Position numbers and translations under genes: made by a program. The notes under the pieces are model-generated. The model was not told where the DNA came from. It saw only the letters and a program-made list of their open reading frames with translations, and did no database searches. A stretch of 64,000 nucleotides of DNA, taken from contig CP136065.1 of assembly GCA_032622095.1 (NCBI GenBank), forward strand, positions 42,507,503-42,571,502. The letters are read 5' to 3'. Of this stretch, positions 1-48,230 are shown piece after piece. Source of the stretch: Siphonodentalium dalli (lineage: Eukaryota; Mollusca; Scaphopoda; Gadilida; Siphonodentaliidae). Every line of letters starts with the position of its first letter. Within the stretch, counting starts at the first letter, position 1.

Positions 1-78
1 TGACTTACGAACGTTTGAATGAGATGGGATGGGACGTTTTTTATCTCGATTTAATAGGGGCACATAATTTAGAGTACA

Positions 79-150
79 TTTTTTGCAATTTTTTCTCCAC
101 AGAATTGAAATTGTGATGGAGCATCCAGACCAACTGAACCATTTTGAGAC
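79..150 (-). repeat. 72-bp inverted copy of the start of the 87-aa membrane gene
   Basis: This stretch is the reverse complement of 2690-2761, the first ~72 bases after the ATG of the small membrane-protein gene. It appears to match without mismatch and sits about 20 bp upstream of the small basic ORF. The same inverted copy is present in unit 2 (about 6922-6993), so the rearrangement predates the 6.8-kb duplication. It marks a template switch or inversion inside the Polinton-like element. Confidence 0.9.
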
Positions 151-169
151 AACTACTTAGACTGTGAAG

Positions 170-864
170 ATGCCTTCAAAAACTAAGAGCAGGAAAGCAC
201 CGCTGATAAAAAAATATGGTGAGTTGATTGTTGCAATGAGTAAAGTTCCATCTGCATATAAAAAGAAAATGATCAACGATGCTCCGAAACAAGTGATGGA
301 TTGTATTTCAGAATGTTGTCAAAATCTTTTAAAAGGTAATGTAAAACTGAATGAAGCTCAGAGCCGTAAGTTACATTCGAAGCGTAAACATATCAGATAT
401 CTTGCAGACAAGAACAAACCTTTGTTGTTGTTGTTACTCTACGGCCATTGGTTGGTTGTTCGACCCCCCATTGGTTAGATTTAGGCGCCAGAACCTCTGA
501 CCTAATAGATTTGAATCCCCTGTGTTAACTGTGTGCGCGGGCGTAATAGTAAGCCTGTTTTTTGGATGTTAGACTTGTGTCTGTGGTCCAGACATGTAAA
601 ATACGTTGCGTATTGAGAAGGAGTTATCATTAAACTTTTTGTTTGGATTTTGACGGATTTTAGTAAATTCGGTTTTGGTGACGTCATCGCAGTACTGTTA
701 GGTGCTGCTTTATCCTTATGACGTCATAGTGTCGCGTATCTTATCGTAGGAGGGCATATCCTCGTAGGAGGTACCAAAAAGGTGGCTTTTTACCATTATT
801 ATTTCTTGCTCCATTGATTAGCAAAACATTAGGTGCAGTTGTTAACAATATTTTGAAAAACTAA
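170..864 (+). pseudogene. Interrupted small basic Polinton-type protein gene (unit 1)
   Basis: ATG at 170 opens a Lys-rich frame with a Cys-containing centre (CISECCQNLLKGNV) that resembles a small ORF recurring beside Polinton/Maverick-like integrase genes in invertebrates (recognised from memory). The frame leaves family-like sequence near 418 and stops at 478. A Gly/Leu-rich hydrophobic tail typical of the same ORF appears at 781-864 in another frame, ending in TAA. The gene therefore looks split by roughly 320 bp of unrelated DNA with a frame change. The intact protein would be a small basic, possibly membrane- or capsid-associated factor; its function is not established here. Confidence 0.7.
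420..765. mobile_element. Insert splitting the small basic ORF (unclassified)
   Basis: The segment separates the two halves of the small ORF. It opens with (TTG)n and contains two CRE-like palindromes (TGACGTCA near 680 and 719) and a short duplication of CGTAGGAGG near its right end. No terminal inverted repeats or clear target duplication were found. A weak B-box-like string (near 510) is not enough to call a SINE. The same insert is in unit 2 (about 7263-7608). Borders are approximate. Confidence 0.5.
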
Positions 865-877
865 ATCTCAAATAAAT

Positions 878-1600
878 ATGAAGAAAATGGTTATTGTACC
901 ATTCAGAATGTTGGAAGATTTCAAACAATGGAAAATGTCAGAAATGAATAAACCTCAATTACCTCCTGATCCTGCAATTTCAAATGTTTCAGATTCTTAC
1001 AAAGAATTGAAATCAGTTTATGATAAAAATATTTCTGAATCAGAAAAGTCACAGTTATTTGGAGAAAATTTGTACAAATTGAAAACTTCACAAAAATCTT
1101 TAAATTCAAAATTCAGTTTACCTGAACAAAAGTTATCTGAAAACTTTGGGAAAATGAGTGAACATATATTGGAAAGTGTGCCATCTAAACTTCGTGGTAA
1201 AGCACAACAAATTGTAACATTGTTGTCAACTAATCCTAAACTTAGATGGGATGATCGTGGACAATTAATTTATGGAACAGAAACAGTTACGGGATCAAAT
1301 ATAATTGATTTGATAAACGATGTTGTTCGTCACCGAAAAGGTTTTGACCCAGTTGGTTATGAAACATTCCTACGTGGATTGGGGGAACTTAATGTACCAC
1401 AAGATTATGTAGGTAACAGGAATCGATGGTTGTGGATACAAAGACATTTAAAAGAAGGTCACACTGGTGATGAGTTTCATACACCTCATGCAACTCCTAG
1501 CAGTGGCAAGTCAAGAAAACGTTCAGTTGATATTTTCACACCTCAAAGTTTTCCTAAAACCAGAAAATCTATTTTGAAAGGATGGTCCTCACTTACATAA
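878..1600 (+). CDS. Polinton-type structural/unknown protein, 240 aa (unit 1)
   Basis: A 240-codon frame whose second half (KLRGKAQQIVTLL, LRWDDRGQLIYG, GSNIIDLINDVVR, then RKGFDPVGYETF and an NVPQDYVGN motif) matches a protein class that I recall being encoded next to the chromodomain integrase in Polinton/Maverick-like elements of cnidarians and molluscs. The N-terminal half is charged and helical, with no signal peptide or membrane segment. It overlaps the integrase frame by 19 bp, the compact spacing expected of a viral-like element. Biochemical function is unknown to me. A second copy at 7721 is truncated. Confidence 0.7.
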   Translation: MKKMVIVPFRMLEDFKQWKMSEMNKPQLPPDPAISNVSDSYKELKSVYDKNISESEKSQLFGENLYKLKTSQKSLNSKFSLPEQKLSENFGKMSEHILESVPSKLRGKAQQIVTLLSTNPKLRWDDRGQLIYGTETVTGSNIIDLINDVVRHRKGFDPVGYETFLRGLGELNVPQDYVGNRNRWLWIQRHLKEGHTGDEFHTPHATPSSGKSRKRSVDIFTPQSFPKTRKSILKGWSSLT

Positions 1601-2676
1601 AATTTGACAAACTTCTAACTGAAATTTACTACAATCCAAAAGAAGTTGGTGGTTTCAGTGGAGCAAATCAACTTTTTAAAAATGCGAAAGAAACAAATAA
1701 CAAAATTAAACTTTCAGATGTTAAAAAATGGTTACAATGGCAAAAAACATACACTTTGCACAAACCAATTGTTCGGAAATTTCGCAGACGTAAAACTATT
1801 GTTGCAGGAATTGATATTCAGTGGCAAGCTGATTTGGCAGATTTTCAAACTTTGCAAAAGCACAATGACAATTACAGATATTTACTTTGTGTTATTGATG
1901 TGTTCTCAAAATTTGCATGGGTTGAAAAAATTAAAGACAAAACTGGTAAAACTTTAGTTAAAACATTTCAGAAAATTCTCAAATCATCAAAACGAAAACC
2001 AGTTTCATTTCAATCTGACAAAGGTTCAGAATTCAAAAATAAATTATTTTTACAATTTTTGAAATCTAAGAAAATTCATTTTTTCACAACAGAGAATCCA
2101 GAGACAAAAGCAAGTATAGTTGAAAGTTTTCAACGGACATTGAAAACAAAGATGTGGAAATATTTTACACATAATCAAACTTTGAAATACAATGATGTTT
2201 TGCACGATTTTGTGAATTCTTACAACAAAAGTTTTCATAGAAGTATTAAGATGGCACCAGTTTTAGCAACTCGAGAAAATGAAATTGAAGTTTCCAGAAA
2301 TCTTTATGGAAAGTTAAAAACGAAAAAAGATAAGATCTTGAAAGTTGGAGATTTTGTTAGAATAAATAAAACAAAGAGAACTTTTGATAAAGGATATCTT
2401 CCAAATTGGACAAAAGAAATTTTCAAAATTAGTAGAGTTTGTAAAAGTACACCATTAACTTACAAATTAGTAGATTTAGATGGTGAAAACATGGCAGGAT
2501 CATTTTATGGTAAAGAAATTCAACATATAAAAGATAATAAAGTTTACGAAATTGAATCAGTTGTTGGTAAACGTTCAAGAAAAGTTGCTGGTAAATCAGT
2601 TAGAGAAATTAAAGTTCATTGGGCTGGTTATCCTAAAAAATTTGACAGTTGGATTCCTGCCACAAATTTGGTATAA
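1582..2676 (+). CDS. Polinton/Maverick-type integrase with C-terminal chromodomain
   Basis: A 364-aa rve-family (RNase H fold) DDE integrase that would join element ends to host DNA. Probable catalytic residues are D84 (in WQADLADF), D146 (in QSDKGSEF) and E181 (in TKASIVESF), close to the usual DD35E spacing. The core spans about residues 75-240. A chromodomain occupies about residues 315-364 (WAGYPKKFDSWIPATNLV at the end), the arrangement typical of Polintons and chromoviral integrases. The frame is open from end to end, so it could still encode enzyme. However, the surrounding block lacks the polymerase, ATPase, protease and major capsid genes of a complete element. The start could be a little later; the overlap with the upstream gene is 19 bp. 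Confidence 0.9.
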   Translation: MVLTYIKFDKLLTEIYYNPKEVGGFSGANQLFKNAKETNNKIKLSDVKKWLQWQKTYTLHKPIVRKFRRRKTIVAGIDIQWQADLADFQTLQKHNDNYRYLLCVIDVFSKFAWVEKIKDKTGKTLVKTFQKILKSSKRKPVSFQSDKGSEFKNKLFLQFLKSKKIHFFTTENPETKASIVESFQRTLKTKMWKYFTHNQTLKYNDVLHDFVNSYNKSFHRSIKMAPVLATRENEIEVSRNLYGKLKTKKDKILKVGDFVRINKTKRTFDKGYLPNWTKEIFKISRVCKSTPLTYKLVDLDGENMAGSFYGKEIQHIKDNKVYEIESVVGKRSRKVAGKSVREIKVHWAGYPKKFDSWIPATNLV

Positions 2677-2686
2677 AACTTTTAAC

Positions 2687-2950
2687 ATGTCTCAAAATGG
2701 TTCAGTTGGTCTGGATGCTCCATCACAATTTCAATTCTGTGGAGAAAAAATTGCAAAAAATCAAGTAACATATTTTACACAAATTATTATAATTGTTGGT
2801 ATAATCGCTACAGCAATTGTTCATTTAAGTTTACAAAGTGAAAATAACGAACTGTGGTTAATTTTACTCAGTAGTTCTTTGGGATACATTTTACCAACAC
2901 CGCGTTTGAAATATTTGAAAAATCAGTCGGCAGAAATTTTGAAAGTATGA
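2687..2950 (+). CDS. Small membrane protein of the Polinton-like block, 87 aa
   Basis: ATG at 2687 lies 10 bp after the integrase stop. The protein has a short polar N-terminus, then two hydrophobic segments: QIIIIVGIIATAIVHLSL around residues 28-46, and LWLILLSSSLGYIL around 54-67, followed by a basic tail. I recall this two-helix layout with an LLSS-GY-LP signature from a small gene in Polinton-like elements. Its stop overlaps the next gene's ATG (ATGA at 2947-2950). Role unknown; a virion membrane or capsid-vertex accessory role is a guess. Its 5' end is duplicated in inverted orientation at 79-150. Confidence 0.75.
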   Translation: MSQNGSVGLDAPSQFQFCGEKIAKNQVTYFTQIIIIVGIIATAIVHLSLQSENNELWLILLSSSLGYILPTPRLKYLKNQSAEILKV

Positions 2951-3654
2951 ATTCTTTCTACATTACAATTCCGAGCGACAGTTCAATGGTAATGTATCCA
3001 AACAATTCTCAATGTTGTTTTACTGTACAATTACCAAAACCAATTCAAATTGATAAAGAAAAATGGGAAGTTGCATTAGTCGAACTGATAATACCTTCAG
3101 AAACATACAATGTTACAGGGGATTCGTGTAAATTCAATTTGATTACAACTGATGCAATAATACTGTATGTTCTTCAAAATCGTTTTGAAGAAAAGATATT
3201 TACGAGACCTGATGGCGTTCGTGCAATTGAAATGCAGATACGAGAAGGTTCGTATTCCTCTGCGGCAGATTTACTTGATACAATGCAAGATGTAATTGAT
3301 GAAACACTTGGAGAAGCAATACAAAACGAATTCGGATTTCACATCAAGTACTCAAAAGTTACAAAACGTGTGAAAATTATTCGCAAGAGTTTAAGTATCA
3401 CAAAACTAGGAATTGAATTACCACAAAGTCTTTTGCACAAGTTGGGTTACAAAACTGAAAACGATTCTGAAGATTTTTATTCAAATAATAGATTTCCGTT
3501 TGGTGTAGATTTGAATGTTGGTCATAATCAAATGTTTGTTTATTCTGATATTGCCGATTTCACAATTGTTGGAAATGTTGAAGTACAAATTTTACGAGTT
3601 GTTTGTTTCAGAGACGGGTCAACATGCATATTTTTCTTGATCATTATTGCATAG
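2947..3654 (+). CDS. Polinton-type protein with C-terminus replaced by tandem-repeat sequence
   Basis: The frame is 235 codons long. The N-terminus (FYITIPSDSS, then KWEVALVELIIPSETYNV) resembles a conserved protein found with the integrase and two-helix membrane gene in Polinton-like elements of invertebrates. From about 3607 the reading frame lies in the first unit of the ~278-bp array, so the last ~16 residues are repeat-encoded and the natural C-terminus seems to be missing. Start overlaps the upstream stop by 4 bp. Function not known to me. Absent from unit 2, where the deletion removes it. Confidence 0.65.
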   Translation: MNSFYITIPSDSSMVMYPNNSQCCFTVQLPKPIQIDKEKWEVALVELIIPSETYNVTGDSCKFNLITTDAIILYVLQNRFEEKIFTRPDGVRAIEMQIREGSYSSAADLLDTMQDVIDETLGEAIQNEFGFHIKYSKVTKRVKIIRKSLSITKLGIELPQSLLHKLGYKTENDSEDFYSNNRFPFGVDLNVGHNQMFVYSDIADFTIVGNVEVQILRVVCFRDGSTCIFFLIIIA

Positions 3655-6028
3655 CGATCAAACAAATGTTTTTAATTTCGTTAGATCATTATCTATTATT
3701 TGGTACACATGATTGATATATTTATTACCTCGTTAGGAAAATATGGAATGTTTTTCTAGTTTTTGTTTCGGAATTGTACATATTTTATACATAAAACTGA
3801 ACACAAGATTGTTACACGGGCGTCAATGAAAACACAACGCATTGAACTTAAAAATTGACAAGTATTTCCTCAAGTTGTGTTTTTTCAGAGACGGATCAAC
3901 ATGCATATTTTTCTTGATCATTATTGTATAGCGATCAAACAAATGTTTTTTAATTTCGTTAGATCATTATCTATTATTTGGTACACATGATTTGATATAT
4001 TTGTTACCTCGTTAGGAAAATATGGAATGTTTTTCTAGTTTTTGTTTCGGAATTGTACATATTTTATACATAAAACTGAACACAAGATTGTTACACGGGC
4101 GTCAATGAAAACACAACGCATTGAACTTAAACATTGACAAGTATTTCCTCAAGTTGTGTTTTTTCAGAGACGGATCAACATGCATATTTTTCTTGATCAT
4201 TATTGCATAGCGATCAAACAAATGTTTTTAATTTCGTTAGATCATTATCTATTATTTGGTACACATGATTGATATATTTATTACCTCGTTAGGAAAATAT
4301 GGAATGTTTTTCTAGTTTTTGTTTCGGAATTGTACATATTTTATACATAAAAAAACTGAACACAAGATTGTTACACGGGCGTCAATGAAAACACAACGCA
4401 TTGAACTTAAACATTGACAAGTATTTCCTCAAGTTGTGTTTTTTCAGAGACGGATCAACATGCATATTTTTCTTGATCATTATTGCATAGCGATCAAACA
4501 AATGTTTTTAATTTCGTTAGATCATTATCTATTATTTGGTACACATGATTTGATATATTTATTACCTCGTTAGGAAAATATGGAATGTTTTTCTAGTTTT
4601 TGTTTCGGAATTGTACATATTTTATACATAAAACTGAACACAAGATTGGTACACGGGCGTCAATGAAAACACAACGCATTGAACTTAAAAATTGACAAGT
4701 ATTTCCTCAAGTTGTGTTTTTTCAGAGACTGATCAACATGCATATTTTTCTTGACCATTATTGTATAGCGATCAAACAAATGTTTTTAATTTCGTTAGAT
4801 CATTATCTATTATTTGGTACACATGATTGATATATTTAATACCTCGTTAGGAAAATATGGAATGTTTTTCTAGTTTTTGTTTCGGAATTGTACATATTTT
4901 ATACATAAAACTGAACACAAGATTGTTACACGGGCGTCAATGAAAACACAACGCATTGAACTTAAAAATTGACAAGTATTTCCTCAAGTTGTGTTTTTTC
5001 AGAGACGGATCAACATGCATATTTTTCTTGATCATTATTGTATAGCGATCAAACAAATGTTTTTTCATTTCGTTAGATCATTATCTATTATTTGGTACAC
5101 ATGATTGATATATTTATTACCTCGTTAGGAAAATATGGAATGTTTTTCTAGTTTTTGTTTCGGAATTGTACATATTTTATACATAAAACTGAACACAAGA
5201 TTGTTACACGGGCGTCAATGAAAACACAACGCATTGAACTTAAAAATTGACAAGTATTTCCTCAAGTTGTGTTTTTTTCAGAGACGGATCAACATGCATA
5301 TTTTTCTTGATCATTATTGCATAGCGATCAAACAAATGTTTTTAATTTCGTTAGATCATTATCTATTATTTGGTACACATGATTGATATATTTATTACCT
5401 CGTTAGGAAAATATGGAATGTTTTTCTAGTTTTTGTTTCGGAATTGTACATATTTTATACATAAAAAACTGAACACAAGATTGTTACACGGGCGTCAATG
5501 AAAACACAACCCATTGAACTTAAAAATTGACATGTATTTCCTCAAGTTGTGTTTTTTCAGAGACGGATCAACATGCATATTTTTCTTGATCATTATTGCA
5601 TAGCGATCAAACAAATGTTTTTAATTTCGTTAGATCATTATCTATTATTTGGTACACATGATTGATATATTTATTACCTCGTTAGGAAAATATGGAATGT
5701 TTTTCTAGTTTTTGTTTCGGAATTGTACATATTTTATACATAAAACTGAACACAAGATTGTTACACGGGCGTCAATGAAAACACAACGCATTGAACTTAA
5801 AAATTGACAAGTATTTCCTCAAGTTGTGTTTTTTCAGAGACGGATCAACATGCATATTTTTCTTGATCATTATTGCATAGCGATCAAACAAATGTTTTTA
5901 ATTTCGTTAGATCATTATCTATTATTTGGTACACATGATTGATATATTTATCACCTCGTTAGGAAAATATGGAATGTTTTTCTAGTTTTTGTTTCGGAAT
6001 TGTACATATTTTATACATAAAAAACTGA
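3607..6028 (+). repeat. ~278-bp tandem array, about 8.7 copies (unit 1)
   Basis: The landmark ACACGGGCGTCAATG recurs at about 3814, 4093, 4373, 4651, 4928, 5206, 5486 and 5763, a spacing of 277-280 bp. Units differ by few substitutions and by 1-3 bp in A/T runs. The first unit is continuous with the 3' end of the upstream gene, so the unit appears to contain that gene's coding end. Right edge near 6028, where AACATACTGAAC follows; the same edge closes the second array near 9215. Confidence 0.95.
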
Positions 6029-6241
6029 ACACAAGAAACATACTGAACATTTTTCTTGATCATTGCATTTGATAACTTTACTTGGTCATCGTTTATGAAC
6101 GAAGATGAATTCATATGTTAAAACATCTTAATTAATTGCATATACTATCATGAATTTAATCTATAACATATCTAAATGGTGAAACTAACAGATAATGCAC
6201 TGAAAAGAAACACAACGTCAGGAAACATTTGTCATTTTTAA

Positions 6242-6661
<420 letters not shown>

Positions 6662-6688
6662 ACATTAACATTGAAACCCCATCAAAAC

Positions 6689-6704
6689 GGCCCTTTTCAG
6701 GGCC
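6689..6704 (+). terminator. Histone mRNA 3' stem-loop
   Basis: GGCCCTTTTCAGGGCC forms a 6-bp stem with a four-base TTTC loop, followed by ACCA, 28 bases after the H4 stop. This is the SLBP-binding element of replication-dependent histone mRNAs. A CAAAGATAGCTCTTT stretch about 12 bases further on is in the right place for the histone downstream element read by U7 snRNP. Confidence 0.95.
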
Positions 6705-7012
6705 ACCAAATTTATCAAAGATAGCTCTTTACTTAGCATAATACTTCACCAAATTTCCCGAAATATGTTACTGAAAACAATTATATACATCCCTACCCCC
6801 GAGTAAGTTCGTCATTATACTTTATTTGTGTGTACGAAAACATTGACTTACGAACGTTTGAATGAGATGGGATGGGACGTTTTTTATCTCGATTTAATAG
6901 GGGCACATAATTTAGAGTACATTTTTTGCAATTTTTTCTCCACAGAATTGAAATTGTGATGGAGCATCCAGACCAACTGAACCATTTTGAGACAACTACT
7001 TAGACTGTGAAG

Positions 7013-7707
7013 ATGCCTTCAAAAACTAAGAGCAGGAAAACACCGCTGATAAAAAAATATGGTGAGTTGATTGTTGCAATGAGTAAAGTTCCATCTGCAT
7101 ATAAAAAGAAAATGATCAACGATGCTCCGAAACAAGTGATGGATTGTATTTCAGAATGTTGTCAAAATCTTTTAAAAGGTAATGTAAAACTGAATGAAGC
7201 TCAGAGCCGTAAGTTACATTCGAAGCGTAAACATATCAGATATCTTGCAGACAAGAACAAACCTTTGTTGTTGTTGTTACTCTACGGCCATTGGTTGGTT
7301 GTTCGACCCCCCATTGGTTAGATTTAGGCGCCAGAACCTCTGACCTAATAGATTTGAATCCCCTGTGTTAACTGTGTGCGCGGGCGTAATAGTAAGCCTG
7401 TTTTTTGGATGTTAGACTTGTGTCTGTGGTCCAGACATGTAAAATACGTTGCGTATTGAGAAGGAGTTATCATTAAACTTTTTGTTTGGATTTTGACGGA
7501 TTTTAGTAAATTCGGTTTTGGTGACGTCATCGCAGTACTGTTAGGTGCTGCTTTATCCTTATGACGTCATAGTGTCGCGTATCTTATCGTAGGAGGGCAT
7601 ATCCTCGTAGGAGGTACCAAAAAGGTGGCTTTTTACCATTATTATTTCTTGCTCCATTGATTAGCAAAACATTAGGTGCAGTTGTTAACAATATTTTGAA
7701 AAACTAA
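7013..7707 (+). pseudogene. Interrupted small basic Polinton-type gene (unit 2)
   Basis: Second copy of the gene at 170-864, with the same internal insert, the same early stop (7321) and the same displaced hydrophobic tail (about 7624-7707). One amino-acid change relative to unit 1 (Ala to Thr near residue 10). It shows the insertion happened before the 6.8-kb duplication. Confidence 0.7.
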
Positions 7708-7720
7708 ATCTCAAATAAAT

Positions 7721-8407
7721 ATGAAGAAAATGGTTATTGTACCATTCAGAATGTTGGAAGATTTCAAACAATGGAAAATGTCAGAAATGAATAAACCTCA
7801 ATTACCTCCTGATCCTGCAATTTCAAATGTTTCAGATTCTTACAAAGAATTGAAATCAGTTTATGATAAAAATATTTCTGAATCAGAAAAGTCACAGTTA
7901 TTTGGAGAAAATTTGTACAAATTGAAAACTTCACAAAAATCTTTAAATTCAAAATTCAGTTTACCTGAACAAAAGTTATCTGAAAACTTTGGGAAAATGA
8001 GTGAACATATATTGGAAAGTGTGCCATCTAAACTTCGTGGTAAAGCACAACAAATTTTAACATTGTTGTCAACTAATCCTAAACTTAGATGGGATGATCG
8101 TGGACAATTAATTTATGGAACAGAAACAGTTACGGGATCAAATATAATTGATTTGATAAACGATGTTGTTCGTCACCGAAAAGGTTTTGACCCAGTTGGT
8201 TATGAAACATTCCTACGTGGATTGGGGGAACTTAATGTACCACAAGATTATGTAGGTAACAGGAATCGATGGTTGTGGATACAAAGACATTTAAAAGAAG
8301 GTCACACTGGTGATGAGTTTCATACACCTCATGCAACTCCTAGCAGTGGCAAGTCAAGAAAACGTTCAGTTGATATTTTCACACCTCAAATTCACGGGCG
8401 TCAATGA
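7721..8407 (+). pseudogene. Truncated second copy of the 240-aa Polinton-type gene
   Basis: Matches 878-1547 with one Val-to-Leu change. At 8390/8391 it is cut by the junction with the ~278-bp array, so the last six codons before TGA come from repeat DNA. The integrase and both downstream genes are deleted in this unit. The junction shows little homology between the parent sequences (CCTCAAA against the array's TTACACGGG). Confidence 0.85.
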
Positions 8408-9215
8408 AAACACAACGCATTGAACTTAAAAATTGACAAGTATTTCCTCAAGTTGTGTTTTTTCAGAGACGGATCAACATGCATATTTTTCTTGATCATT
8501 ATTGCATAGCGATCAAACAAATGTTTTTAATTTCGTTAGATCATTATCTATTATTTGGTACACATGATTGATATATTTATTACCTCGTTAGGAAAATATG
8601 GAATGTTTTTCTAGTTTTTGTTTCGGAATTGTACATATTTTATACATAAAACTGAACACAAGATTGTTACACGGGCGTCAATGAAAACACAACGCATTGA
8701 ACTTAAAAATTGACAAGTATTTCCTCAAGTTGTGTTTTTTCAGAGACGGATCAACATGCATATTTTTCTTGATCATTATTGTATAGCGATCAAACAAATG
8801 TTTTTAATTTCGTTAGATCATTATCTATTATTTGGTACACATGATTTGATATATTTGTTACCTCGTTAGGAAAATATGGAATGTTTTTCTAGTTTTTGTT
8901 TCGGAATTGTACATATTTTATACATAAAACTGAACACAAGATTGTTACACGGGCGTCAATGAAAACACAACGCATTGAACTTAAAAATTGACAAGTATTT
9001 CCTCAAGTTGTGTTTTTTCAGAGTCGGATCAACATGCATATTTTTCTTGATCATTATTGTATAGCGATCAAACAAATGTTTTTAATTTCGTTAGATCATT
9101 ATCTATTATTTGGTACACATGATTTGATATATTTGTTACCTGTTAGGAAAATATGGAATGTTTTTCTAGTTTTTGTTTCGGAAATGTACATATTTTATAC
9201 ATAAAACTGAACACA
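8391..9215 (+). repeat. ~278-bp tandem array, about 3 copies (unit 2)
   Basis: Same unit as 3607-6028, landmarks near 8393, 8669 and 8948. It ends at the same right edge (AACACAAGAAACATACTGAAC) as array 1. The copy number difference (3 against about 8.7) shows the array changes length independently of the larger duplication. Confidence 0.95.
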
Positions 9216-9426
9216 AGAAACATACTGAACATTTTTCTTGATCATTGCATTTGATAACTTTACTTGGTCATCGTTTATGAACTAAGATGAATTCATCGAA
9301 AAGAAACTCTTGATAGCTAATTGATATTTTCCAAAGTGAGATTTTCCTTTTGAAAAAAATAATTCTAAGTCCATTTTCATTTTTTCGATCAGAAATGTCA
9401 CATCAATGACAGGAACATCTATCCTC

Positions 9427-45490: not shown

Positions 45491-46154
45491 TTCGACACGT
45501 ACTGTTCTTCTTATAGTTATAGTGACAAAATAATATCGCACAATCAGATTGACACCTGAACACGCGGCCAATCCTAAACTACATTGAATGTCACTTATTG
45601 CGATATGCCACACCATAAGACCTATTGATGAATGATAATAATGTTACAAGTGTCTGATCATAGCCAATGTAATAAAACAGTTTGTCCAAATTCTTCCGTG
45701 TAATAACATGGAAGACGGACAATCCTATTCTATAGTGACTGGTACAACTTCGGTTTCTGATTTCATCGAAGATAAACAATTCAGCTTTTCAAATTTTCCT
45801 GAAATTTCCTTTTTAACACTGATTAACGACACAGTTTAAGAAATAAATACATATGCTATTAGTTGCAACTAGTAACTTAGATATATTCCACACAAACACG
45901 ACATCACAAATTGTTGACTTAATCACTAAAAGCGGTCAGAAGAATAATTGGGCGTGTTAAAAAAAGTTCAGCCGAATTGCATCTGAAGCTAGTTATTTAT
46001 ATCGATGACATGATCGTTGCTAAGTGCTTGTATTCGGCTGACTTAATGTGCTGCATGGGCTGGTATCAAATTCTCTGCAGATTTTGTGAAAATAAATAAG
46101 AATACATTCAGCTTTTTATGGGAATAAATAATCAAAATGCTATATAAATATAAG
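45491..46154. other. Intergenic spacer between the lectin and HSPA12-like genes
   Basis: No coding sequence recognised. Confidence 0.5.
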
Positions 46155-47760
46155 AAATGAATATAGTGGATGTGTGTTATTGTGTGATACGGCGCGGTGG
46201 TCGTTAATGAATATAGTGGATGTGTGTTATTGTGTGATACGACACGGTGGTCGTTAATGAATATAGTGTATGTGTGTTATTGTGTGATACAGCGCGGTGG
46301 TCGTTAATGCATATAGTGGATGTGTGTTATTGTGTGATACGGCGCGGTGGTTGTTAATGAATATAGTGGATGTGTTATTGTGTGATACGGCGCGGTGGTC
46401 GTTAATGAATATAACGGTTGTGTGTTATTGTGTGATACAGCACGGTGGTCGTTAACGAATATAATGGATGTGTGTTATTGTGTGATACAGCGCGGTGGTC
46501 GTAAATGAATATAATGGATGTGTTATTGTGTGATGCGACGCCGTGGTCGTTAATGAATATAGTGGATGTGTGTTATTGCGTGATACAGCGCGGTGGTCGT
46601 TAATGAACATAATGGTTGTGTGTTATTGTGTGATACAGCGCGGTGGTCGTTAATGAATATAATGGATGTGTGTTATTGTGTGATACGGCGCGGTGGTTGT
46701 TAATGACTATAATGGATGTGTGTTATTGTGTGATACGGCGCGGTGGTCGTTAATGAATATAGTGGATGTGTGTTATTGTGTGATACAGCGTGGTGGTCGT
46801 TATTGAATATAATGGTTGTGTGTTATTGTGTGATACAGAGCGGTGGTCTTTAATGAATATAATGGATGTGTGTTATTGTGTGATACGGAGCCGTGGTCGT
46901 TAATGAATATAATGGATGTATGTTATTGTGTGATACAGCGCGGTGGTCAATAATGAATATAATGGATGTGTGTTATTGTGTGATACAGCACGGTGGTCGT
47001 TAATGAATATAATGGTTGTGTGTTATTGTGTGATACAGCGCGGTGGTCGTTAATGCATATACTGGTTGTGTGTTATTGTGTGATACAACGCGGTGGTCGT
47101 TAATGAATATAATGGATGTTTGTTATTGTGTGATACAGCGCGCGGTCGTTAATGAATATAATGGTTGTGTGTTATTGTGTGATACAGCGCGGTGGTCGTT
47201 TATGAATATAATGGATGTGTGTTATTGTGTGATACGGCGCGGTGGTCGTTAATGCATATAATGGTTGTGTGTTATTGTGTGATACAGAGCGGTGGTCGTT
47301 AATGAATATAATGGATGTGTGTTATTGTGTGATAAGGCGCGGTGGTCGTTAATGAATATAATGGTTGTGTATTATTGTGTGATACAGTGCGGTGGTCGTT
47401 AATGAATATAATGGATGTGTGTTATTGTGTGATACGGCGCCGTGGTCGTTAATGAATATAGTGGATGTGTGTTATTGTGTGATACAGCGCCGTGGACGTT
47501 AATGAATATAGTGGATGTGTGTTATTGTGTGATACGGCGCCGTGGTCGTTAATGAATATAGTGGATGTGTGTTATTGTGTGATACGGCGCCGTGGTCGTT
47601 AATGAATATAGTGGATGTGTGTTATTGTGTGATACGGCGCGGTGGTCGTTGGTTGCACATTTAGTGAGAACCGCTTCGTTGTTTAACACAATGTGATCGT
47701 TAAAACGACCACAGCGCCGTATCCACCAATAACACACATATACCCACTACATTCATTGTT
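46155..47760 (+). repeat. 50-bp minisatellite, ~30 copies, terminal unit inverted
   Basis: Unit AATGAATATA(G/A)TGGATGTG + TGTTATTGTGTGATAC(G/A)GCGCGGTGGTCGTT, period 50 bp, from about 46155 to 47655. Variants (GGTTG for GGATG, CCGTGG for CGGTGG) cluster in neighbouring units, suggesting local block duplication. At 47693-47758 one diverged unit is in reverse complement (CGACCACAGCGCCGTATCCACCAATAACACAC). Confidence 0.95.
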
Positions 47761-47767
47761 TAAACAA

Positions 47768-48230
47768 CGATGATGATAATGACTACGGCGATGCCGACAA
47801 AGATGACAGTGATGATTATAATGATGGTGATTATGATGATGATGACGATGACAACGATGACGAAGACGGTAGTGATGACGATGATGATGGTGATGATGAT
47901 GACGATAATTATATTTCTAATGGTGGCAAAGGCAGTGATGATGATATCCGATGATGGTGATGGTCATAGCGATGATGATGATGATGATGATGATGATGAT
48001 AATACTAATGATGATACATGATTATAATGATGATGATCGCGGTGGTGATGATTACAATGACGATTACCTTCATATCGATGGCAGTGACAGAAAGTGCCGT
48101 CCCTGCATCATTCAACTTACTAATGATGATGCTGATGACAATAATTATGATGACAATAATAATGATGGTGATGATGATGATAATAACGATAACGAAGACT
48201 GTGATGATGCTGATGATGATGAATACAAAT
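47768..48230 (+). repeat. (GAT/GAC)n-rich trinucleotide tract containing a copied gene fragment
   Basis: Long imperfect GATGATGAT/AATGATGAC tract. At 48076-48112 it is interrupted by TCGATGGCAGTGACA...CCTGCATCATTCA, a diverged copy of 48278-48315, the end of the adjacent HSPA12-like exon. The minus-strand frame there reads LNDAGTALSVTAID against WNDAGTELVVTAID in the gene. Poly-Met and poly-Asp/Ile frames are artefacts. Confidence 0.9.

Follow-up and report, generated by a model that had tools for sequence, protein, structure and literature searches.

Polinton/Maverick (adintovirus-like) elements are the closest described systems to the element reported here, which we found in 64,000 nucleotides of the scaphopod mollusc Siphonodentalium dalli (assembly GCA_032622095.1, contig CP136065.1, C5:42507503-42571502; this whole stretch is called the window). 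The likeness comprises inverted termini that start with AG, a 6-bp target-site duplication, a family B polymerase, an A32-like ATPase, a retroviral-type integrase with a chromodomain and a weak match to a protease. The window very probably holds the right part of a defective Polinton with left-type ends on both sides (left-left), in which two host histone H4 genes are present that would go back to one capture, have spread with the element and now be drifting as cargo.

Single histone genes are known from other viral settings. In a bracovirus, a virus-derived element, there is one H4 gene that came from the host, CvBV-H4 (PMC9145170), and the H3-like gene of a clam xenomavirus and the Histoid of xeno-class adomavirus are single histone-like genes in small DNA viruses found with molluscs (PMC9145170, PMC11071296). 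One Tegillarca (clam) sequence has a Histoid alongside adintovirus-like virion protein genes (PMC11071296). Polinton, Maverick and adintovirus are not mentioned in the main text of a review of viral histones (PMC9145170), the authors of a study of Amoebidium report no nucleosome histones for its viral insertions (PMC11244446), and the passages of PMC12721341 on 'histone' say nothing about Polinton histones. Literature searches covering titles and the starts of abstracts turned up no Polinton with a core histone, which is not proof of absence.

The assembly comprises 2.23 Gb in 9 contigs (C1 to C9), and an extra 10 kb left of the window was included in the analysis. Window positions are marked w, and extracted loci carry L numbers: L009 lies left of the window, L011 and L021 are a left-end and a right-end locus of the Polinton, and L018-L020 belong to the histone array. 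Counts from this genome are lower bounds, with the best 40 candidates scored per search.

Structure of the insertion

A sequence-only reading of the window had described nearly identical 6.8-kb units at w1-9299, and these were confirmed in part: w1-1547 and w6844-8390 differ at 2 of 1547 bases, the tandem period is about 6842, and H4 lies in two successive units. The repeat sits within a single insertion of 16.1 kb, from C5:42501133 to w9742. At its left terminus (L009:3631, AGTAGTAATG) TACAGG stands immediately before the element, and at its right terminus (w9742, CATTACTACT) TACAGG follows again (w9743-9748). Terminal inverted repeats are present at both ends, and w9357-9742 matches the right end in L021 as well as the left end in L011. 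Bounded by inverted termini and a 6-bp target-site duplication, the 16.1 kb behaves as one insertion. The limit of 9299 given earlier was thus too short, as the element runs to w9742.

The expectation of more units to the left held in part. Another H4 block directly adjoins the window (C5:42506691-42507502; 3 mismatches and 1 gap in 813 against the window block), so the insertion has two H4 genes, one at w6347-6661 and the other just left of the window. Beyond it, however, no further tandem units follow but an inverted arm (array, penton-like open reading frame (ORF), part of the integrase); between this arm and the corresponding window sequence, 13 of 1639 bases differ. Unit 1 holds a viral-type gene (the integrase with its chromodomain), further ORFs, a 277-bp tandem array (w3597-6036; the array of unit 2 is at w8393-9218), H4 and a histone 3' stem-loop. 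Unit 2 is not a full second unit: it is without integrase, penton-like ORF and H4, jumps at 8390 to a three-monomer array that starts at 8393, and departs from the repeat at 9296. Divergence is higher at the right end of unit 2, with about 6 differences in 348 bases of the last monomer and tail, than at its left end, with 2 in 1547. At w9296 the left-end ORF region is missing (L011 jumps from 3649 to 2927); this position was rejected as the element end, being a deletion edge.

A Polinton family that carries H4

The H4 cassette was found at eight places besides the window, comprising seven near-full-length Polintons and one locus read in part. H4 is thereby linked to Polinton sequence at 9 loci with 10 H4 copies on 5 of the 9 contigs, so that the genome search for H4-linked Polinton fragments returned far more than the window pair, and chance adjacency of H4 and Polinton was rejected since the same cassette recurs at nine loci. 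The partnership proposed in the sequence-only reading is therefore recurrent, but a histone repeat that amplifies a mobile-element fragment is not what links the two. Judged by sequence comparison, H4 is cargo of a Polinton family, and the 6.8-kb tandem came about by rearrangement within a single insertion.

The dispersed Polintons are near full length. At C5:252.82 Mb the element measures about 17 kb and encodes a family B polymerase, an A32-like ATPase, an integrase with chromodomain and a weak C5-protease match. Sequence of the polymerase (PF03175, E-value 4.9e-21) is present in all seven dispersed elements, of which C3_32 has it in part, and the packaging ATPase (FtsK/HerA-type; Pox_A32, 1.6e-8) in all seven; both are absent from the window copy. 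The RVE integrase was present at 8 of 8 loci (the window and the seven dispersed ones), and H4, ATPase and integrase were full length at each of the seven. A protease-like ORF was seen in 6 of the 7 (Peptidase_C5, E-value 0.02, below the cut-off). The major-capsid-position and penton-like ORFs gave nothing usable in Pfam, and the capsid-position ORF no match in PDB. An exact 6-bp target-site duplication occurs at 5 of the 10 loci examined (window, C5_252, C1_61, C4 and C2), and at C7 five of the six letters are alike; one terminus was not found at 4 of the 10, with C3_270, C3_32, C5_227 and C6 among them.

Additionally, the upstream region in front of H4 (w6037-6284) was searched in the genome. 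Among the best 40 of 836 candidates, all 40 matched at 99-100%, so the family is large and young, and 39 of these 40 fall outside the known H4 loci, so the H4-bearing members seem few. Scans of IMG/VR with H4, ORF X, the integrase and the penton-like ORF found no relative, and the exact satellite pattern likewise gave none. In PHROGs the integrase gave transposase-type matches besides some weaker matches whose function is not known, and among the other ORFs the small ORF gave one weak match of unknown function (E-value 0.049).

Two observations concern the ends of the family. The left-end ORF (L011:2971-3480, minus strand; also in L032) reaches 168 amino acids and has no Pfam match, and it is its own upstream region that is duplicated before H4. 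The examined termini contain a 30-bp minisatellite as a long near-palindrome (w9431-9730; L011:2559-2940; L021:9129-9708).

Capture and history of the H4 copies

When the genome was searched with the H4 block, the best 40 of 1053 candidates comprised 9 element-borne copies and 31 in an array on C9 (C9:143.80-144.27 Mb). This search missed one H4 copy: a whole-genome pattern for the inserted codon returned the same 9 copies and a tenth at C1:276.45 Mb, within Polinton sequence, and none on C9. Three one-mismatch matches on C3 (243313239, 243347139, 259289116) were excluded as likely chance, because the control pattern itself gave 7. The H4 matches of the C9 array are on opposite strands in its two halves (minus in one, plus in the other), and the array includes at least one frameshifted H4 (L029).

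The element H4 (w6347-6661, plus strand) has 104 codons where the host gene has 103, and its DNA is 96-99% identical to host H4 outside indels. Its protein is not canonical; against the host array H4 it has one inserted residue, G94I and further changes (two partial array rows of L020 were left out of this comparison). An inserted codon and a change of two bases (GGA to ATA, giving G94I) recur in each of the 10 element H4s but in none of the 7 array H4s examined. These shared changes suggest a single capture, after which H4 spread together with the element; this, or the capture of an already altered H4 gene, explains them.

The captured piece seems to have been genomic DNA, because the match to the host array reaches past the stem-loop and the mRNA 3' end. 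C9 array genes match w6285-6934, including sequence past the stem-loop (RF00032, w6684-6730, plus strand; 39.4 bits against a gathering score of 34), with the captured 3' flank at w6731-6934 (plus strand; array homology and alignment). A retrocopy of H4 mRNA was rejected, since the host flank continues past the mRNA 3' end to w6934. This stem-loop is the only Rfam match above the gathering score in the 64 kb, and the element H4 lies outside the histone cluster, the host array being on C9. In the dispersed copies the host part ends near 6743 and is followed by a piece of a pX-like ORF.

On the other side of the gene, the sequence preceding H4 at w6037-6300 (plus strand) duplicates, in inverted orientation, the upstream region of the Polinton left end, a presumed promoter, as aligned with the inverted match in L011; L011:3445-3994 equals inverted 5644-5091 at 97.5% over 554 bases. 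The edge between element and host sequence falls within about w6285-6316, in a short stretch that is alike in both, and the host 5' untranslated region of H4 follows at w6301-6346 (plus strand; alignment with host array genes). The upstream region resembles the host H4 promoter weakly, a likeness reached by 6 and 4 of 2000 shuffles. For six element genes, the distances between pairs of copies correlate with those found for the H4 region (r 0.51-0.81, from 21 or 28 non-independent pairs), as expected if H4 and the element genes travel together. The pairwise comparison of element and host H4 that gave 96-99% identity omits the codons at the insertion, and the selection counts below retain them; both cover the element H4s other than the tenth (C1_276).

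Selection on H4

The H4 variants of 8 copies, both frameshifted ones included, comprise 17 nonsynonymous and 4 synonymous changes, with a ratio of 1.32 that does not differ from neutrality (P 0.80). The corresponding ratios were 0.37 for the major-capsid-position ORF (P 0.003), 0.52 for the integrase (P 0.15) and 0.69 for the polymerase (P 0.12). A frameshift is present in 2 of the 10 element H4s, and the inserted residue falls in what we take to be helix 2 of the histone fold. We infer that the element H4 is recently captured cargo that is now drifting, its protein no longer, or never, kept by selection.

The penton-like ORF (L021:5306-5971 and homologues, 8 copies) had 43 nonsynonymous and 5 synonymous changes (ratio 2.32, P 0.077), possibly through diversifying selection.

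Formation of the window copy

Polymerase, ATPase, the late genes past the penton-like ORF and the left-end ORF are missing from the window copy. Direct repeats of pX/ORF X flank polymerase and ATPase in the full element and are fused in the window copy, so that a deletion by recombination between these repeats fits. Both termini of the insertion have left-type subterminal sequence. A second left-left element was found at C2:191.83-191.85 Mb (L035, L036; C2:191834200-191846800) with the exact duplication GGTGAT, so integrating left-left forms belong to the family. At C6:84588800-84603250 (L033, L034) left-type ends face outward, though no right terminus was found. The upstream-region matches include further minus/plus pairs, spaced 9-15 kb apart, at C3:204.09-204.10 Mb and C1:203.01-203.02 Mb.

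Features of the window element and its surroundings

The window opens with host histone-array sequence 3' of the H4 to its left (w1-91, plus strand; the same as 6844-6934), assigned by alignment and by the homology of L018-L020 to w6285-6934. It is followed by 74 bp that repeat the beginning of the small ORF in inverted orientation (w78-151, minus strand; a 100% inverted repeat of 2688-2761 that matches L021:5120-5047) and by part of a small Polinton ORF labelled pX-like (w140-424, plus strand; 98.6% to L021:2825-3109). The full pX-like ORF (L021:2846-3223) has weak matches below the cut-off, RA_3 (E-value 0.011) and Adeno_PX (E-value 0.079). On the plus strand follow ORF X (w878-1597), which matches L021:3216-3959 and has no Pfam match; the integrase with its C-terminal chromodomain (w1585-2676; PF00665 1.4e-12, PF00385 1.7e-5, with matches to integrase chains in PDB); the small ORF of the late-gene block (w2687-2950, in the order of L021:4890-5309); and the penton-like ORF (w2947-3600), which is truncated on entering the array, with 78% of L021:5306-6157 present. 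The latter gave a chance-level Pfam match (CUB_2, E-value 0.49) and an unusable structure model (pLDDT 35).

The array of unit 1 (w3597-6036, plus strand) consists of 8.8 monomers of 277 bp, each 90-95% identical to L011:3726-3997, and represents amplified left-end upstream sequence. An independent satellite was rejected as the source of the arrays, their monomers being Polinton left-end sequence. Past the second copy of 1-1547 (w6844-8390), repeat detection gave the 3-monomer array of unit 2 (w8393-9218) and, also on the plus strand, its tail (w9219-9296), the same as 6037-6114 with 1 mismatch in 78. The left-type subterminal sequence (w9297-9356, minus strand) is 98.3% identical to L011:2925-2866 and has no match in L021. 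The terminal inverted repeat with its palindromic 30-bp minisatellite (w9357-9742, minus strand; repeat and locus comparison) reaches the target-site duplication.

Farther into the window, w46156-47650 is a 50-bp tandem array of 30 copies with a strong bias of G over C on the strand (GC skew 0.50 in 46001-48000). The ORF of 356 amino acids at w48235-49305 (minus strand) may be an Hsp70-family (Hsp12A-like) gene.

Discussion

The sequences show a genomic fragment of a histone-array-type H4 gene within Polintons at nine loci, joined on its upstream side to an inverted copy of the sequence that precedes the element's own left-end ORF. We propose that the fragment was captured once and that the H4-bearing Polinton then spread with its H4. 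With the duplicated region as promoter and the histone stem-loop forming the 3' end, H4 would be made upon transcription of the element. The symmetrical structure in the window would have arisen on a replicating linear genome prior to integration, since both ends are left-type and the target site is duplicated, and a later exchange would have produced the 6.8-kb tandem.

A histone repeat unit amplified in tandem, taking a Polinton fragment along, would account for H4 in two successive units of the tandem. We consider this extremely unlikely: the tandem lies within one insertion with a target-site duplication, the eight further loci with H4 inside Polinton sequence refute it as a general model, and the histone array is on C9, where three array stretches (30 kb) had only histone-related matches to w1-10500 (E-values up to 1e-8). 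It is very improbable that the tandem and the inverted arms are false joins of the assembly. Rearranged and highly similar copies are prone to misassembly and the palindrome junction was seen once; however, the exact target-site duplication spans the whole structure, a left-left element with such a duplication exists also at C2, and the arms, H4 blocks and tandem ends each differ (13 in 1639, 3 in 813 and a gap, 2 in 1547), which a mere double placement of one sequence would not produce. An origin of the symmetrical tandem after a normal Polinton had inserted is doubtful, though it has some chance of being right. The divergence is unequal (arms 0.8%, H4 blocks 0.4%, tandem ends 0.13%), which indicates that some rearrangement steps were later than others, but a left-type right terminus would then require that the whole right end was lost while an intact terminus and the duplication were kept, and the C2 element again speaks for integration of left-left forms.

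H4 might also be functional cargo, made from the Polinton promoter and packaging the element DNA or disturbing host chromatin. The fusion to the upstream region, the retained stem-loop, the frames that are still open and the nine loci reached would fit this, and CvBV-H4 of the bracovirus enters host nucleosomes (PMC9145170). Such a function is nevertheless unlikely, as nonsynonymous changes in H4 are as frequent as expected without selection, all 10 copies have the inserted residue, 2 of 10 are frameshifted, and of the 40 scored upstream-region matches, 39 are at sites other than the known H4 loci. A past role is quite improbable too, in which a Polinton lineage used the altered H4 (inserted residue, G94I) behind its duplicated left-end promoter against host chromatin assembly or histone supply during replication, with the present copies as relics.

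Several observations weigh against the capture of a drifting H4 by a left-left Polinton as proposed above. The H4 frame is open in 8 of the 10 copies, and the H4 ratio does not differ significantly from that of integrase and major-capsid-position ORF together (Fisher P 0.19), which in this small sample makes the constraint test weak. The names major capsid, penton and pVI are our assumption from gene order and position, and position is also what suggests that the duplicated upstream region may be a promoter. In a tree of the H4 region, weakly supported, element and host rows are intermixed, so that it is the shared insertion and two-base change that speak for a single capture. Just 5' of the ATG the window copy and the dispersed copies (C5_252, C7 and C3_32 in this alignment) resemble different host array genes, and the window copy holds more host flank; there may therefore have been exchange with array genes, or H4 sequence may have been acquired in a second step. 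The upstream region of the window is 99-100% identical to H4-less members and, as a block, 94-97% to the dispersed H4 bearers, which indicates recombination between subfamilies; such recombination, or recombination with the array, probably took place. Among 40 scored matches the palindrome junction occurs once, in the window copy itself, so the symmetrical form did not visibly spread, and spread of this exact form was rejected.

With a drifting, once-captured H4, a core histone gene would be seen here soon after its passage from the host into a virus-like element. Since donor array, fusion edge, host flank and descendants are readable in one genome, the steps (DNA-level capture, coupling to a control region, spread, loss of constraint) can be tested. 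The left-left Polintons integrated with target-site duplications bear on a possible replication of Polintons outside the chromosome; left-end-duplicated defective adenovirus genomes resemble these symmetrical forms.

In comparison to known systems, the element differs from described Polinton/Maverick elements in that it bears a host core histone gene. Arrays are tied to mobile elements also in oyster Helitrons with short satellite arrays and in CgiSat52, annotated as DNA/Polinton (PMC8268682), whereas the array here is amplified Polinton left-end upstream sequence. CvBV-H4 has an extended tail, about 87% identity in the fold domain, a function and positive selection (PMC9145170); the element H4, in contrast, keeps 96-99% DNA identity to the host gene outside indels, without tail extension and without detectable constraint. 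The histones of xenomavirus and Histoid type are remote or H3-like, while the element H4 is a nearly unchanged host H4 that came with its flank and stem-loop and is carried in integrated Polintons.

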